DNA of 35,077 nt, taken from the NCBI GenBank assembly GCA_026710875.1, contig JAPOQE010000021.1, positions 1 through 35,077 on the forward strand. Direction: 5' to 3'. The notes under the pieces were generated by a model. That model searched no databases. It worked only from the letters and a program-made list of their open reading frames with translations, and was not told the DNA's origin. The stretch's first letter is position 1. Each line of letters starts with the position of its first letter. Made by a program: the position numbers and the translations under genes. The stretch comes from Gammaproteobacteria bacterium. Its GTDB lineage: Bacteria > Pseudomonadota > Gammaproteobacteria > UBA4575. Shown here piece after piece: positions 7,470 through 34,803 of this stretch.

Positions 7470-9284
7470 ATGAACGAGACTGATTACATTACTCTAGAAG
7501 TTGCCCAGACCCTGCCGGGATTATTTCATGAACGTGTGGTGCGTGCGCCTCGCACACAGGCCTATGGATTTTACGATGATGAGAAAAACACCTGGGAAAG
7601 TCTGACTTGGCAGCAGGTAGCCTGCCAGGCGGCAAAGGTACAGGCAGGGTTACAGAACAAAGGGCTGGGCAAAGGGGATCGTGTCGCTATCCTGTTGCGC
7701 AACTGTCCAGAATGGATCGTATTCGATGTGGCTGCACTGGGCTTGGGGTTGGTTACCGTCCCTCTATACACAAATGATCGCGCTGAGAATGTAGCCTACA
7801 TCATTCGAGATGCCGGCATAAAAGCGATACTTATCCAGAACTTGCGCCAGTGGAGGCAACTGTCGCAAATTGAAAGTGTCCGAGATGCATTGCAATGCGT
7901 AATCAGTGTCGCACCGGTGATGGATATGGCCCATCACGACTCCCGTTTGGTACATATGCAGGACTGGATCAACGATGAAACACGTGACGGATATAAAGCG
8001 GTTGTCCTGGACCGTAATGCCTTAGCCACAATTATCTATACTTCCGGTACAACAGGACGTCCCAAAGGAGTGATGCTCAGTCACTGGAACATACTTTTGA
8101 ATGCCTATGCCGCTTTGCAGTGTGCGGATTTTTTCGAAAAGGATGTATTTCTATCTTTTCTTCCTTTATCTCATTCGATGGAACGTACGGCAGGCTGTTT
8201 CATGCCCATGATGGCTAACTCGAAAGTATGCTTCGCCCGCTCTATACAGCAACTCGGGGAAGATCTTGAAAAGGTTCGCCCAACCATATTTATATCGGTA
8301 CCACGCATTTACGAGATCATTTACGCAAAAATCTCAAGCCAAGTGGAGGAACAGCCCAGTTACAGGAAAATGATGTTTGCTTGGGCACAGCGTATTGGTT
8401 GGCGAAGTCTCCGGTTCAGGACCGGCAAGGCAAGATGGCACTGGAGCCTGCTACTTTGGCCATTGATGGATCGACTTGTGGCAGCAAAGATCAGACAAAA
8501 GCTGGGTGGCCGATTGCGCTATGCAATAGTTGGCGGCGCGGCACTGGATAAAATCATCACTAAGTTTTTTGTCAGTCTAGGAGTCCCTATTTACCAGGGC
8601 TACGGCATGACAGAGTGCAGTCCGGTCATCAGCGTAGCCCGACCGGGAGGCAATGACCCATTTAGTATTGGCAAGCCATTGCCGGGCATCGAGGTGAATC
8701 TAACAGAAGAAGGCGAGCTGTGTACGCGAAGTGACTGCGTGATGCTCGGGTATTACGGCAATAAACAGGCGACTGAGCAAATGATTGATACTGAAGGCTG
8801 GCTGCATACCGGTGACATTGCACATATTACAGATGAGGGCTATCTGTATATCACAGGAAGGATCAAGGACATTATCGTTTTGGCAAACGCCGAGAAGGTG
8901 TCGCCCCAAGACATGGAGACTGCAATTTGTGCCGACCAGTTGTTTGACCAGGTCATGATACTTGGTGAAGGCCAGCCTTTTCTTTCTGCGCTTCTTGTGC
9001 TGAACCAGGCGGAATGGGAAGTCCTCGCTAAAGACATGAAGCTCAATGCTAAGGCGCCAGAAACATTGCAGGATGCCTCCCTGCATCGATATGTCATGCA
9101 GCGCTTGGCAGGTTGCCTGAAAGAATTTCCAGGTTATGCGCAGGTACGCAGGGTGAGCATGTACCTGGAGCCCTGGACGATTGAGAATAACTTGCTTACC
9201 CCAACCCTGAAAATCAGAAGAACCCAGCTTGCTGAGCTGTTTGCTGAAGACATATCTGCCATGTACAAATCCATGAAAACGTAA
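7470..9284 (+). CDS. Long-chain acyl-CoA synthetase / AMP-dependent ligase
   Basis: This is a 604-residue enzyme of the ANL superfamily that activates a fatty acid to acyl-CoA through an acyl-adenylate. The P-loop motif is complete (TIIYTSGTTGRPKGVMLSH). The A5 motif YQGYGMTECSPVIS and the hinge region WLHTGDIAHITDEGYLYITGRIKDII are intact. It belongs to the long FAA1/bacterial FadD15-like branch and not to classical E. coli FadD (561 residues); chain-length preference cannot be read from sequence. The start has GAGGA about 11 bases upstream. It stands alone between divergent nadA and the convergent SPOR gene. Roles in membrane lipid remodelling or fatty-acid uptake are both possible. Confidence 0.9.
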   Translation: MNETDYITLEVAQTLPGLFHERVVRAPRTQAYGFYDDEKNTWESLTWQQVACQAAKVQAGLQNKGLGKGDRVAILLRNCPEWIVFDVAALGLGLVTVPLYTNDRAENVAYIIRDAGIKAILIQNLRQWRQLSQIESVRDALQCVISVAPVMDMAHHDSRLVHMQDWINDETRDGYKAVVLDRNALATIIYTSGTTGRPKGVMLSHWNILLNAYAALQCADFFEKDVFLSFLPLSHSMERTAGCFMPMMANSKVCFARSIQQLGEDLEKVRPTIFISVPRIYEIIYAKISSQVEEQPSYRKMMFAWAQRIGWRSLRFRTGKARWHWSLLLWPLMDRLVAAKIRQKLGGRLRYAIVGGAALDKIITKFFVSLGVPIYQGYGMTECSPVISVARPGGNDPFSIGKPLPGIEVNLTEEGELCTRSDCVMLGYYGNKQATEQMIDTEGWLHTGDIAHITDEGYLYITGRIKDIIVLANAEKVSPQDMETAICADQLFDQVMILGEGQPFLSALLVLNQAEWEVLAKDMKLNAKAPETLQDASLHRYVMQRLAGCLKEFPGYAQVRRVSMYLEPWTIENNLLTPTLKIRRTQLAELFAEDISAMYKSMKT

Positions 9285-28904: not shown

Positions 28905-28980
28905 GGCCAGGTAGCTCAGTCGGTAGAGCAGTGGACTGAAAATCCTCGTGTCGGTGGTTCGATTCCGCCCCTGGCCACCA
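28905..28980 (+). tRNA. tRNA-Phe (GAA)
   Basis: The 76 bases fold as a tRNA. The acceptor stem GGCCAGG/CCTGGCC is perfect, the D-arm is GCTC...GAGC, the anticodon loop CTGAAAA has anticodon GAA, the T-arm GGTGG-TTCGATT-CCGCC pairs with one wobble, and CCA is encoded. The anticodon stem GTGGA/TCCTC has a T28-T42 mismatch (bases 28932 and 28946). An integrase gene starts 85 bases downstream in the same direction, so the 3' end is the probable attachment site of the island that follows. Confidence 0.96.
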
Positions 28981-29065
28981 AATATATCAATAAGATATTA
29001 GGTTACTGTTTTCAATCCCTGTGTCATTCGGTACAATTGCGGTACACTTCTACTGGAATGGACCC
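28981..29065. other. Probable attL-proximal region with CGGTACA repeats
   Basis: This is the junction between tRNA-Phe and the integrase. AATAT...ATATT words lie at about 28981-29000. CGGTACA is repeated at 29029-29035 and 29040-29046, 11 bases apart, or one helical turn. Such repeats beside an integrase gene suit arm-type integrase or excisionase sites or a repressor operator. Confidence 0.5.
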
Positions 29066-30106
29066 ATGGCAACAATTACGAAGACCCCATCGAACACCTG
29101 GAAAGCGATGATCCGCAAGCGCGGCTGGCCGACCACCATCAAGACCTTCCGCACCAAGCGTGATGCACAGGACTGGGCACGGCGCACCGAGGATGAAATG
29201 GTGCGCGGCGTGTACATCGACCGGGCCGGATCGGACCGTCTCCTGCTGAAGCACGCACTGGACCGCTACCTGCGTGAAGTGTCCTCCACCAAACGTGCGA
29301 CTACAGCTTATGCTGAGGGACACAAGGCCAAAGCCTTGAAGGAAAACCTGGGGGCTTACAGCCTTGCTGCGATCACGCCGGACCTCGTGGCCCGGTATAG
29401 GGACCAACGGCTGGAGGCAGGCAAGTCCAACAACACCGTGCGCCTGGAACTCTCCCTGCTCTCGCACCTGTTTACCATCGCTATCAAGGAATGGCGAGTG
29501 GGCCTGTTCTACAACCCGGTGGCCAATATCCGCAAGCCTAGTCCAGGTAAGGGCCGGGATCGGAGATTGAAGGCCGAGGAGGAAAAGGTCTTGTTCCAGG
29601 CCTGCGACCGACATTCCAACCCGATGCTCGGCTGGATAGCAAGAATTGCCCTATACACTGGCATGCGTGCCGGGGAGATCAAATCCCTGATGCGTTCACA
29701 GGTAGACCTGAACAAGCGCACCGTGCACCTCACTGAAACCAAGAATGGATCCTCAAGGACCGTACCACTTACAAAACAGGCTACGAATGTCTTTCGTGCT
29801 GCCCTCAGCAATCCTGTCCGACCCTTGGACACGAATTTGATCTTCTGGGGTGAGCCTGGAAGAGATGGAATACGCCGCCCCTATGAGTTTCGGCCAGCCT
29901 GGGTCCGCACATTGAAGAAAGCCGGTATTGAAGGCCTGCGCTTTCATGATCTTCGCCATGAAGCGGTCTCACGTCTGGTCGAGGGGGGCCTGGGCGACCA
30001 AGAAGTGTCTGCGATCTCCGGGCACAAGTCCATGCAAATGCTCAAGCGCTATACGCACCTGCGTGCGGAGGATTTGGTGGAACGTTTGGATCAGCTAATG
30101 GGTTGA
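29066..30106 (+). CDS. Tyrosine recombinase / phage-type integrase
   Basis: This 346-residue integrase has all catalytic residues: R201 (YTGMRAGEI), K226 (ETKNGSSRTVPL), H294xxR297 (FHDLRHEAVSRL), H320 (SGHKSMQML) and nucleophile Y329 (KRYTHL). The N-terminal AP2-like/arm-binding part (residues 1-55, TWKAMIRKRG...TKRDAQDWARR) and the SAM-like core-binding domain (55-150) are complete. ATG 29066 is chosen; a GTG at 29021 would add 15 residues without family similarity. Its place 85 bases after tRNA-Phe indicates site-specific insertion into that tRNA gene, and it marks the left end of the island. To the eye it is richer in G and C than the genes to its left. Confidence 0.93.
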   Translation: MATITKTPSNTWKAMIRKRGWPTTIKTFRTKRDAQDWARRTEDEMVRGVYIDRAGSDRLLLKHALDRYLREVSSTKRATTAYAEGHKAKALKENLGAYSLAAITPDLVARYRDQRLEAGKSNNTVRLELSLLSHLFTIAIKEWRVGLFYNPVANIRKPSPGKGRDRRLKAEEEKVLFQACDRHSNPMLGWIARIALYTGMRAGEIKSLMRSQVDLNKRTVHLTETKNGSSRTVPLTKQATNVFRAALSNPVRPLDTNLIFWGEPGRDGIRRPYEFRPAWVRTLKKAGIEGLRFHDLRHEAVSRLVEGGLGDQEVSAISGHKSMQMLKRYTHLRAEDLVERLDQLMG

Positions 30107-30275: not shown

Positions 30276-31055
30276 TCATTGTCCGGAAACGGGCTTAAGC
30301 GAGAAAGAGATTTCGTACTCGACGAGCCGAATGTTCTCAACGAATGCAGTTGCCAGAATAAGGTCCTCGGAAATCTCGCTTGCGACAATGATGCCCCTGA
30401 CCGAAGCTTCACCGGCGAGGTTCCCTTTGATCCAGCTCATGTATCGAAGGATCTGACCCACGACTCGGTCGTAGGCACGGGAAACTTTGGTCTCAATCAC
30501 CACGTAGGCACCGTCAGTGCCAACCGCAAGAATATCAATTCGACGCTGGCCTGCGGGAAACTCAATGCCGGTGAATACTCCGTCCTCGTCTTCGTAGAGC
30601 TTCAGCCCGGGTTCCAGAAGTCCGAGGTTTTGGGCAAGATAGTTTTGAAGATCCCGCTCAAACGCGAACTTGCGCGACCCGAGTTCGTCTTCCTCGGTGG
30701 TCTCTTCGGCAATATCACCCGTCTCGGTGACGTTTCCTGCAATATCTGCCTCAATATCGGCCTTGTAGCGGGGGGCCGGGTCTTTCTCGGAATCCCATAA
30801 GCGAAATTCGCTCGGGCCCAACTTGAAGAACAGGTCCCAGCCTGCATCTGGCTTCACGTTGGAGTGATGTCGCCGACTAGGAGAATTCACAGACATGCCA
30901 TCTACATGCATCCCGACGGTGTTGCTCTTGATGTTTGGGTAGTGTTTAGAAAACCAGCGAACCGCATCCTTGCGAGAGAACACCTGACCAAGCGTTAGCT
31001 TTTGAGCCGCAAACTCGTGCATCAGTTCCTTGGTGGATTTTTCGTAAATTGACAT
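30276..31055 (-). CDS. Winged-helix plus PD-(D/E)XK nuclease, NucS-like C-terminal domain
   Basis: This 259-residue protein has two parts. Residues 1-95 look like a DNA-binding winged-helix domain (DUF7669-like: FSRKDAVRWFSKHYPNIKSNTV...WDLFFKLG). An acidic linker follows (100-125). Residues 128-259 carry a PD-(D/E)XK nuclease core like the NucS/DUF91 C-terminus: D174 (RRIDILAV), E188 and K190 (VIETK), then Q201 and Y205 (GQILRYMSW). All expected catalytic residues are present. GGGAG lies 7 bases upstream of the ATG. It is alone on the minus strand within the island, with no methylase beside it. A defensive or modification-dependent nuclease is my inference; mismatch-type EndoMS activity is less likely in this setting. 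Confidence 0.82.
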   Translation of the reverse strand: MSIYEKSTKELMHEFAAQKLTLGQVFSRKDAVRWFSKHYPNIKSNTVGMHVDGMSVNSPSRRHHSNVKPDAGWDLFFKLGPSEFRLWDSEKDPAPRYKADIEADIAGNVTETGDIAEETTEEDELGSRKFAFERDLQNYLAQNLGLLEPGLKLYEDEDGVFTGIEFPAGQRRIDILAVGTDGAYVVIETKVSRAYDRVVGQILRYMSWIKGNLAGEASVRGIIVASEISEDLILATAFVENIRLVEYEISFSLKPVSGQ

Positions 31056-32310: not shown

Positions 32311-33141
32311 GTGAGCCTCACAGCCAGTGAGTGGGCCCTGCGCCAGAACCTCGGGCCGGTGCCCAAGTTCGTCCTGGTCGTGCTGGCCGATGCCGCCAAT
32401 GACCAGAATATCTGCTGGCCGCGTATCTCGACTGTGGCAAACAGGGTGGGCGTATCCCGGCGCACCGTGCAGCGTGCCATCCAGTACCTGGTCCAGCGTG
32501 GACTGGTTACCGTTGTACCACGCAACCGGAACGATGGCTCGAGTTCCTCGAACCTGTACCGATTGATGGTTGGAGGGGGTGTCAATTTGACATCCCCCCG
32601 TGACAATATGGCACCACCCCCTGACAGGGGCGTCACCCCCCCGTGTCACCTGTGTCATGGGGAGGGTGTCACAGGTGACACCCCATTAACCACCAGAAGA
32701 ACCGTAAGGGAACCACCACCACTGCCACAGGGAGCAAAACCTGAATCTGGGATGAAATCCGGGTCCTCGGGAAGTGGTGGGGAAGACGCTTCCAGTTTGC
32801 ACTACCCTGAGGGCCTGTTGCCCTCCGAGCGAGACCGTGCAACAGTCATGGTTCGCAAGCTCAGCGCACCGGTCAACCAGCAGGTGCTGGACGAATGGGC
32901 CGGGATCATGGTGGCAGGAGACATACGGGCCTCACCGCTCGGTTGCCTGCGTGTACTAGTCCAGCGCGCGCAGGAGGGCACGTTCACGCCGGAGCGGGCC
33001 ATGCGTGTGGCCCAGGCACGCAAGGCGAAGCAGCGAGTGAAAGCTCAGATGGAGGAACTGCCTGAACTGGCCCCGGCTGATGAAAGCAACCCGATTGTGC
33101 ACCGAATGCAACAGATCGCACAGCGCCCCCGCAGGGAATAG
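32311..33141 (+). CDS. Helix-turn-helix protein, likely phage/plasmid-type replication initiator
   Basis: This is a 276-residue protein starting at GTG. Residues 10-80 match the N-terminal winged-helix of phage O-type replication proteins: WALRQNLGPVPKFVLVVLAD, then ISTVANRVGVSRRTVQRAI and LVQRGLVTVVPR. Residues 85-160 are a low-complexity Gly/Pro/Ser-rich linker. The C-terminal part (190-255) is helical (VNQQVLDEWAGIMVAGDI...AMRVAQARKAKQRV) and could recruit a helicase loader. The linker is coded by DNA full of TGTCA/TGACA repeats (32575-32684), as if the replication origin sits inside the gene, as in lambda O. The gene is G+C-rich. It may instead be a regulator; no helicase or primase gene is next to it. 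Confidence 0.75.
   Translation: MSLTASEWALRQNLGPVPKFVLVVLADAANDQNICWPRISTVANRVGVSRRTVQRAIQYLVQRGLVTVVPRNRNDGSSSSNLYRLMVGGGVNLTSPRDNMAPPPDRGVTPPCHLCHGEGVTGDTPLTTRRTVREPPPLPQGAKPESGMKSGSSGSGGEDASSLHYPEGLLPSERDRATVMVRKLSAPVNQQVLDEWAGIMVAGDIRASPLGCLRVLVQRAQEGTFTPERAMRVAQARKAKQRVKAQMEELPELAPADESNPIVHRMQQIAQRPRRE
32575..32684. repeat. Iteron-like repeat cluster inside the replication gene
   Basis: Eight exact TGTCA/TGACA words occur in 101 bases. TGTCA starts at 32580, 32644, 32653 and 32667, and TGACA at 32588, 32601, 32622 and 32676; a near match CGTCA is at 32631. GGGTGTCAC (32664-32672) and GTGACACCC (32675-32683) form a perfect inverted repeat, and 32575-32598 forms an almost perfect one. G- or C-runs flank most words. 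Chance would give about 0.2 such words, so they are likely protein-binding sites, perhaps an origin. Confidence 0.65.
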
Positions 33142-33427
33142 CCTGGTTCCATGACCCCCCCGCAGCCTGCCTGCACAAGAGGTTGTCTGACCCAGGCAGA
33201 GGCGCCCTGCGGGCCAGCGAAAGTCCGGAGAACTATCCGGCGATACCGCAGTCCCACGTACGTGGCCGTGTCACTGCCAGCAAAGCGCAGTAGTGACGCG
33301 GCCGCATCCGGTACAGGAAGCAAGATACACCGTACGCCGTTTTCTGCGGGCCTGAATGCCACGCGAATTACGGTGTCCACGAATCCGGATGCATGTGATT
33401 TTTTTTGCCACGGACCTGAATTTTTCC

Positions 33428-33455
33428 GTGACGGATCTGACCCGCATGCTATACT
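33428..33455 (+). promoter_or_regulatory. Possible promoter for the hairpin array and second recombinase
   Basis: GTGACG (33428-33433), a 16-base spacer and TATACT (33450-33455) resemble a sigma-70 promoter (4/6 and 5/6 matches). A transcript starting near 33462 would run about 475 bases through the hairpin array before reaching the recombinase start at 33937. Confidence 0.45.
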
Positions 33456-33591
33456 GAACACGTATCGATTTTGTACCGAAGCCATGGCGGTATATCCGTG
33501 GCGACAAGGCACCGTTCGGACCGTGCAACAGGTGCATCAGCGAAAGCTGCGGTCCATCTTCAACGTCCTTCAAGGACCCAGGGCAAGTCCA

Positions 33592-33867
33592 GGGCTTGTC
33601 CATCTTCAACCGCACAGGCGTAAGCCTGTTTATTCAATCCACGAGCGCCATGCGTGACGTTCGCCTGTGGGCGAGGTCACACCGGGCTTGTATTTTCAAT
33701 CCATGCGGAGGAATCCGCTTACTTCAAAGGAGGTGTAATCCTGTCGCCCGTATACCGGGCATGTTGACTGTCGCAGGGCTGGTCTTCCACAGAAGTCATC
33801 CTGCGTGGCCTTGACTGAGGCACATTCAAGTCGATCGGGAGTGGTGTCCCGTGACCGTATTCGCGAT
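33592..33867 (+). repeat. Tandem hairpin array, three diverged 92-base units
   Basis: GGGCTTGT at 33592 and 33684 and GGGCTGGT at 33776 start three units spaced exactly 92 bases. Each then has a first hairpin (33614-33629 with loop GTAA; 33705-33718 with loop GGAA; 33804-33823 with one bulge), a TTCAA linker (33633, 33723, 33825), and a second hairpin (33654-33680; 33746-33760; 33836-33851). Stem sequences differ between units while the layout is kept, which points to selection on folding. Further hairpins follow at 33860-33874 and 33881-33894. Confidence 0.6.
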
Positions 33868-33936
33868 AAGCGAAACTTGTGCAGCCCAGGCTGCCAGGTG
33901 GCTCAGAAACACTAACCGGAAAAGATAGAGAACACT

Positions 33937-34803
33937 ATGCGCGACTTGAACCACAACCTGAAACAGCTCTGCAAACACTGCCGGGAAGGCAGCTATGCCA
34001 CGCAGAGAAACCGGGAGCGGATCTTGACACAAATTGCGAATGAACTGCATGCGATGGGCTACCGGAAGATGCAGGCGAAATCCTTGAAGCCCAAGCATAT
34101 CGAGGCCCTGGTCCAGCACTGGCAGGACCGGGGCCTGTCCATCGGAACCATAAAAAACCGGATGGCGGCGGTACGCTGGTGGGCCACGAAGGTCAACAAG
34201 CGCAACGTCATGGCCAACTCGAATGAACATTACGGCATTCCGGATAGGCGATTCGTGACCAACGAGGATAAAGCCAAAGACCTCACAAAAGAGCAGCTCA
34301 GCAAGGTCAAGGACGATCATGTGCGCATGAGCCTGGAACTCCAGAAAGCCTTTGGGCTGAGGAGAGAAGAAGCGATGAAGTTCATGCCCAGCTATGCCGA
34401 TAGAGGGGATCATATCCAGCTGAAGGCCAGCTGGACCAAGGGCGGCAAGTCAAGAACAATTCCTATTCGCACAGTAGCCCAGAGAGAGGTGCTTAACCGG
34501 GCAAGGGGCCTTGCCGGTCTAGGGTCCTTAATCCCGAGCCACCGAAGCTACGTTCATCAGTTGAGAGTTTATGAGGGCAGTACGCTACGGGCGGGACTTT
34601 CAAGCATGCACGGTCTGCGCCATGCCTATGCGCAGGAGCGTTATGAGGAGCTGACGGGCTGGAAGTGTCCGGCTACCGGAGGGTTAAACACCAAATCCCT
34701 AAGCCCAGAGCAGCGGGAGTTGGACCGGGAGGCCCGGCTGACGATCAGCCAAGAACTGGGACATGAGCGAGAGCAGGTGACTGCAGCGTATCTTGGAAGA
34801 TAA
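33937..34803 (+). CDS. Second tyrosine recombinase (Integrase_1-type)
   Basis: This is a 288-residue tyrosine recombinase of the short Integrase_1 / phage-integrase SAM-like type, clearly different from the tRNA-proximal integrase. Residues 1-90 form the core-binding SAM-like domain (LTQIANELHAMGYRKM...TIKNRMAAVRWW). Catalytic residues are R142 (FGLRREEAM), K168 or K171 (WTKGGKSRTIPI), H225xxR228 (MHGLRHAYAQERY), H276 (LGHEREQ) and Y285 (TAAYLG), all present. There is no arm-binding domain at the N-terminus. It follows the hairpin array, which may be its leader or its target. It could mobilise a nested element; its sites are unknown. Confidence 0.88.
   Translation: MRDLNHNLKQLCKHCREGSYATQRNRERILTQIANELHAMGYRKMQAKSLKPKHIEALVQHWQDRGLSIGTIKNRMAAVRWWATKVNKRNVMANSNEHYGIPDRRFVTNEDKAKDLTKEQLSKVKDDHVRMSLELQKAFGLRREEAMKFMPSYADRGDHIQLKASWTKGGKSRTIPIRTVAQREVLNRARGLAGLGSLIPSHRSYVHQLRVYEGSTLRAGLSSMHGLRHAYAQERYEELTGWKCPATGGLNTKSLSPEQRELDREARLTISQELGHEREQVTAAYLGR

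Follow-up and report, generated by a model that had tools for sequence, protein, structure and literature searches.

A structured RNA ahead of an MpsA-type tyrosine recombinase, probably the RNA part of a module for conjugative mobilization

Results and discussion

In the window, as we call the whole 35,077-nucleotide stretch of gammaproteobacterial DNA analysed here, a structured RNA of about 475 nt spans the interval from a promoter to the start of a tyrosine recombinase gene (Table 1). That this RNA, which is absent from Rfam, is real and lies at this place we regard as close to certain. On balance we favor the interpretation that the region encodes the RNA component of an RNA-assisted conjugative mobilization module of the tyrosine-recombinase type; our confidence in the role of the RNA is moderate because its 5' domain also leads genes of the DUF3577 family. 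Judged from sequence, the module appears to be a variant of the mobilization module of SGI1, and the 'integrase' of the annotation is probably a DNA-transfer enzyme (a relaxase) working with its own RNA. In the literature covered, the sgm-sRNA of SGI1 is the sole RNA reported to be essential to a conjugative mobilization module; the window adds another RNA, conserved separately, in the same position next to a homologous protein, and its covariation suffices to design exact RNA mutants.

Table 1. Features of the window and of related loci named in the text.
Feature	Position	Strand	Basis
tRNA-Phe, probable attachment site of integrated element	28905..28980	+	ARAGORN
Phage-type integrase beside tRNA	29021..30106	+	PF00589, E=2.7e-30
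Inverted repeat GGCCGTGTCACT..AGTGACGCGGCC, candidate oriT / nick-site hairpin	33264..33303	.	comparison of 41 recombinase genes
Sigma-70-type promoter, GTGACG then extended -10 TGCTATACT	33428..33455	+	sequence
5' RNA domain, P1 + P2 + P3 + pseudoknot GGACC/GGTCC	33476..33562	+	alignment A3, model R2
P1, part of 5' RNA domain	33481..33502	+	
P2, part of 5' RNA domain	33508..33535	+	
P3, part of 5' RNA domain	33538..33549	+	
TTCAA-linked variable hairpins, first part of the initially annotated array	33565..33640	+	sequence, comparison of relatives
Larger hairpin, closed by CGAGC/GCTTG	33642..33690	+	sequence, fold
Hairpin GCGGA-GGAA-TCCGC	33705..33718	+	hairpin at same place in most of 24 relatives
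Shine-Dalgarno-like word AAAGGAGGTG after that hairpin	33726..33735	+	AAGGAGG in 17/24 relatives
3' RNA domain, helices H1-H6	33743..33920	+	alignment A2, model R1
Terminal word CAGAAACACTAACC of 3' domain	33904..33917	+	sequence
MpsA-type tyrosine recombinase, putative conjugative relaxase	33937..34803	+	Pfam PF12834 + PF12835, alignment A4, hhalign
L102 module copy split by group II intron, between RNA and recombinase	G000:C100:5757-5904 and 8719-8904		
RNA-only copies (two genomes, G280 and G222)	L083:490-661, L091:1501-1718, L093:1501-1664		
Lone 5' domain before DUF3577	L120:5910-5994, L118:11835-11919, L052:877-965, L053:1278-1365, L125:6319-6408		model R2

The hairpin stretch is the variable middle of the RNA

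The initial annotation had described positions 33592-33894 as a tandem array of hairpins with a period of 92 bases. The elements it named are where it placed them: GGGCTTGT, a second GGGCTTGT and GGGCTGGT start at 33592, 33684 and 33776, the hairpins ACAGGC-GTAA-GCCTGT (33614-33629) and GCGGA-GGAA-TCCGC are present, and so are the TTCAA words. The period, on the other hand, did not hold up, being detected by neither of two repeat finders and not kept in relatives. Tandem Repeats Finder reports no array in the hairpin stretch, and a repeat finder yields there only short pairs with spacings of 46 and 62. Nor do the GGGCT words open three equal units, since each sits in a different structure: the first lies within a small hairpin (33581-33601), the second is the closing arm of the larger hairpin, and the third contributes to helix H2 of the 3' domain. 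Both hairpins with a GNRA loop likewise stand on their own and are not copies of one unit.

The idea that the fold is kept while the sequence changes is correct between homologous loci and fails between units of the window. The hairpin ahead of AAAGGAGGTG differs in stem sequence and retains its pairing in most of 24 relatives, and an AGGC..GCCT hairpin occurs in 14 of the 24. When the upstream regions of homologous loci are aligned, conserved blocks flank a variable middle that measures 179 nt in the window and 24-293 nt across the 24 relatives, and is almost wholly missing in two of them. The supposed array is this variable middle of the ~475-nt RNA, and its hairpins may serve as a spacer separating the 5' and 3' domains. 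Compared with shuffled sequences, the region is stably folded (z = -3.1 for 33560-33936 and -3.6 for 33142-33936). The perfect Shine-Dalgarno-like word AAAGGAGGTG is kept in relatives, with no clear conserved open reading frame (ORF) downstream of it.

The initial annotation had also proposed that the hairpins are folded single-strand recombination sites, like the attC sites of integrons. Variable-sequence hairpins do adjoin a tyrosine recombinase here; with neither conserved core words nor a period, no cassettes, and a stretch so variable in length and nearly missing in two loci, we nevertheless consider such sites very improbable.

Covariation in the two flanking domains

Homologous upstream regions show strong covariation in both domains that flank the variable middle. 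In the first alignment of the 3' domain, with 14 loci, 23 of the 37 pairs had changed on both sides, and the covariation score was 0.398 against 0.202 +/- 0.015 for shuffled alignments; sliding the pairing partners abolished the covariation. When 369 genomes of the class were screened with a covariance model built from these loci (R1), 14 gave matches, a good many of these being new, at E-values as low as 1e-47; R1 also gave weak matches at the expected place on a Pleionea plasmid, in Saezia and at one further locus. The enlarged set comprises 33 loci, 19 of which were outside the training of R1, and has compensatory changes in 27 of the 37 pairs and a score of 0.423 (shuffled, 0.174 +/- 0.009); the 14-locus figure is the cleaner one because the 33-locus alignment was fitted to the model. 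For the 5' domain (24 loci), double changes were seen in 13 of 20 pairs, among them three of the five pairs of its pseudoknot.

On the plus strand, G-U pairs outnumber A-C mismatches by 60 to 26, which points to the plus strand as the folded one, a count that by itself cannot tell RNA from single-stranded DNA. RNA is the likelier of the two because a promoter with a conserved -10 box precedes the 5' domain; in most of the 24 relatives, a -10-like box lies ~24-38 nt ahead of it. Covariation in both domains, the promoter, the plus-strand bias and the position before the recombinase all bear out the other reading of the initial annotation, that of a structured RNA or RNA partner. Almost no room is left for hairpins that arose by chance in the GC-rich DNA between genes, or for a coding region that escaped recognition: the covariation stands well above shuffled and slid controls, and although open frames are present (e.g. 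33151-33657), that frame has no family match that counts and indels among relatives disrupt the frames.

The RNA does not belong to a catalogued family. Searched with the 4227 families of Rfam, the window gave nothing over the gathering score besides the tRNA, a lax search of 33100-34000 returned one chance match only, and neither the 5' nor the 3' domain corresponds to an Rfam family. A ribozyme was looked for in the window and none was found.

Arrangement of the RNA and its gene

Among 16 new loci examined closely, the recombinase starts ~13 nt past the RNA domain in ten. At L086 the distance is ~350 nt, and two loci are interrupted, L081 by inserted sequence and L102 by a group II intron, which brings its own reverse transcriptase and apparently entered the terminal word of this module copy, at CAGAAACACTCAC^GTGCG. 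Three RNA-only copies (Table 1) have lost the start codon and the recombinase gene and share a common end point, as if they formed a separate non-autonomous lineage.

The 5' pseudoknot domain also occurs alone, directly upstream of DUF3577 (PF12101) genes in five ICE loci. This suggests a reusable leader module, probably a regulatory one; of the two domains, only the 3' domain is recombinase-specific. The 5' domain probably controls or matures the transcript.

These arrangements bear on another account, in which the RNA is only a cis-acting 5' leader (an attenuator, antiterminator or ligand sensor) for the recombinase and the ICE transfer operon. It would agree with an RNA that begins at the promoter and ends at the start codon, with a recombinase that heads a conjugation operon in two genomes (G033 and G350, below), and with the recurrence of the 5' domain before DUF3577. 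It accords poorly with the window and several relatives, where no operon follows the recombinase, and with the RNA-only copies, which keep the 3' domain without the gene. In SGI1, moreover, MpsAB expressed in trans fails to rescue the loss of the RNA (PMC9299015). We therefore judge a leader function alone to be unlikely, yet well worth keeping in mind.

The recombinase and MpsA of SGI1

The window protein scores 76.7 bits against PF12834 (Phage_int_SAM_2; cut-off 22) and 51.7 bits against PF12835 (Integrase_1; cut-off 23), and its catalytic set is complete (R142, K168, H225, R228, H276 and Y285 in alignment A4). For comparison with SGI1, we used an MpsA-like ORF on an unannotated Salmonella Kentucky contig, whose identity as MpsA rests on five residues (R162, H247, R250, H251 and Y319), the same as those published for MpsA (PMC6414798), and on the next ORF, of 99 aa, which lies behind it as mpsB does. 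This ORF matches PF12835 (E=4e-11). Aligned by hhalign with a profile of 21 window-type proteins, it gave a probability of 99.7 and E=3.8e-25 over 263 columns with 30% identity, by which measure the window recombinase is homologous to MpsA. A sequence search of the PDB found nothing relevant, and a DNA search of E. coli genomes with MpsA found no match.

MpsA is regarded as an atypical relaxase, and the sgm-sRNA is likewise required for SGI1 transfer (PMC9299015). The name 'recombinase' given initially to the window protein is apt for its fold; as a statement that it is an integrase it is not, as both the MpsA homology and the association with coupling proteins described below suggest a conjugative relaxase, which we consider its likely role.

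Linkage to conjugation genes

In G033 and G350, the recombinase gene heads a series of genes for PilL2, a DotF-like protein, TIGR03759, PFL_4695, TraD and TIGR03747, as found in ICEs of the PFGI-1 class. The 14 genomes with a module contain ten TIGR03754 TraD genes in all, every one of them on the same strand as a module and 2.1-6.1 kb downstream of it; none of these genomes carries a PF07514 MOBH relaxase. Such a relaxase is found in 20 of 27 other genomes with TraD and adjoins TraD in eight. No TraD has both module and MOBH nearby (P ~0.012 under independence, by our own count of loci). The module stands where the MOBH relaxase gene otherwise sits and appears to replace it, which makes its recombinase a candidate relaxase for ICEs and small plasmids typed as non-mobilizable, including Acinetobacter baumannii plasmids. 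A partial scan of the larger proteins of one ICE copy with insertions, in G263, found TraC, TraU and TraG and no relaxase. The module of the window, for its part, has no coupling protein linked to it.

On small plasmids, the recombinase gene is the first of an operon that also encodes a VirD4-type coupling protein, the Vibrio plasmid pSIO1 being one example. The order of recombinase, a ~70-80-aa ORF and VirD4-type protein recurs on plasmids of Vibrio, Pleionea, Acinetobacter and Psychrobacter. A PAGEV RNA (RF03037) is present on the 4.9-kb pSIO1 (L070:348-565), alongside the recombinase and the coupling protein. The record of the Pleionea plasmid (L073, NZ_CP133550) consists of two near-identical halves of ~17.6 kb, either a dimer or an assembly duplication.

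An upstream inverted repeat as candidate oriT

A conserved palindromic DNA site lies upstream of the promoter, outside the coordinates of the initial annotation. Of the 16 new loci, 13 have a repeat of the form (G)TCACT..AGTGA(C), which stands 256-533 nt upstream of the RNA's 3' domain. Across 41 recombinase genes, some of which are less than 50% identical to that of the window, an inverted repeat with arms of at least 8 bp precedes 28, and CACTNACC or a near form stands shortly ahead of the start in 33. A strict pattern for the repeat occurs about 1-7 times per genome, mostly beside R1 modules, with 38 strand matches against eight for a reversed control. No T-run follows the repeat in the window, which makes it unlike an intrinsic terminator; we infer a role as oriT.

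The 3' end of the window's tRNA-Phe has a 49-bp copy, 98% identical, on another contig (G000:C63:11150-11198), likely the second attachment site, and the PF00589 integrase beside the tRNA is predicted to be the element's own integration enzyme. Seen together with the tRNA, the integrase and the attachment copy, the module at 33.2-34.8 kb would be the part of an integrated element that serves transfer. These findings weigh against the MpsA-type protein being a true site-specific integrase that acts on the inverted repeat, with the RNA as an expression leader or integration guide. Its full tyrosine-recombinase catalytic set, its several copies per genome and the Pfam name of its domain would suit an integrase. 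Given that the element already has its own PF00589 integrase beside a tRNA for which a matching, likely second attachment site exists, that the spacing between the arms of the inverted repeat varies widely, and that the gene is linked to coupling proteins, we find this improbable. Also within the element, on the minus strand (30276-31055), is a protein that joins DUF7669 to a NucS C-terminal nuclease domain, possibly a defence gene.

Comparison with known systems and a proposed mechanism

In SGI1, the sgm-sRNA is encoded between oriT and mpsA and can act in trans (PMC9299015). In the window the order is inverted repeat, promoter, RNA and recombinase gene; with the repeat as candidate oriT, this would likewise place an RNA between oriT and a homologous tyrosine-recombinase relaxase, here a putative one, on the same strand. 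The two share the word CACTTACC upstream of the gene, and to this short word the sequence similarity of sgm-sRNA and window RNA is limited; with filters off, R1 gave no significant match in the region upstream of the MpsA ORF. They differ in the primary transcript (~650-700 nt in SGI1 versus ~475 nt expected for the window) and in the inverted repeat, which in the window is unlike that of SGI1 in sequence and outside the expected transcript. SGI1 has mpsB, whereas no ORF directly follows the window recombinase, and the kinship to MpsB of the ~70-80-aa ORF of plasmid relatives is ambiguous. A further difference from SGI1 is that the module also occurs within complete ICEs and on plasmids that encode a coupling protein themselves.

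Published descriptions of MobK (pIGRK) and TcpM (pCW3, MOBM) likewise present a tyrosine-recombinase fold serving conjugative nicking. The oriT of MobK lies directly upstream of the promoter of its gene (PMC8152469), as does the inverted repeat of the window; the literature covered on MobK and TcpM, however, reports no RNA partner. A review of type IV secretion from December 2025 includes tyrosine-recombinase relaxases only as MOBM/TcpM (PMC12857230). The MOBH relaxase (TraI_2) of PFGI-1- and SXT-class ICEs takes the equivalent position next to TraD in this class of ICE, but has an unrelated HD-hydrolase fold and was not found at the same TraD as the module. An integron attC array was tried as a counterpart and rejected, as there are no repeated sites with conserved core words.

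In G059, RAGATH-13 and RAGATH-32 (RF02688 and RF02922) stand directly before PF12834-type recombinases, and the loci concerned share the inverted repeat seen in the window. The end of RAGATH-13, a short way ahead of the gene, is formed by CAACACTAAAC, and two copies of this RNA lie no more than about 3 kb from a TraD gene. Neither family is matched by the window RNA, which differs in length and structure, and a search of the window genome with RF02688 gave no match. At the distant loci L067 and L068, RAGATH-13 precedes a tandem pair of PF12834-type recombinases, with RAGATH-32 also in L068; both loci have, by eye, a type-I hammerhead-like core, which Rfam did not call in L068.

The proposed mobilization module would thus comprise, in order, a hairpin DNA site (the candidate oriT), a promoter, the ~475-nt RNA and a relaxase of the MpsA kind. 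We infer that the recombinase nicks at the inverted repeat upstream and remains attached to the strand. Assembly of this complex, or its passage to the coupling protein, would depend on the RNA and chiefly on the 3' domain with its terminal CAGAAACACTNACC, a need modelled on that for sgm-sRNA in SGI1. More tentatively, and with somewhat less than even confidence, we suggest an RNA-dependent relaxosome, a complex of a tyrosine-recombinase relaxase containing or requiring a dedicated structured RNA of ~0.5 kb, for the transfer of a large class of Gram-negative ICEs, IMEs and small plasmids at present typed as relaxase-less.

Distribution

In a search for spread beyond the class, only the window's own genome matched among 398 genomes sampled across the phylum, and viral contigs contained no relatives. 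By protein search, the recombinase is present in 17 of 143 related genomes, with several copies in some, in ten loci of a public genome collection and in 226 plasmid records; at the DNA level, the similarity to plasmids is confined to the recombinase gene, on one Halioglobus plasmid. The window genome carries further copies of the region. C-terminal fragments of the recombinase recur in related genomes (L017, L018, L019 and L020), some of them far from contig ends.
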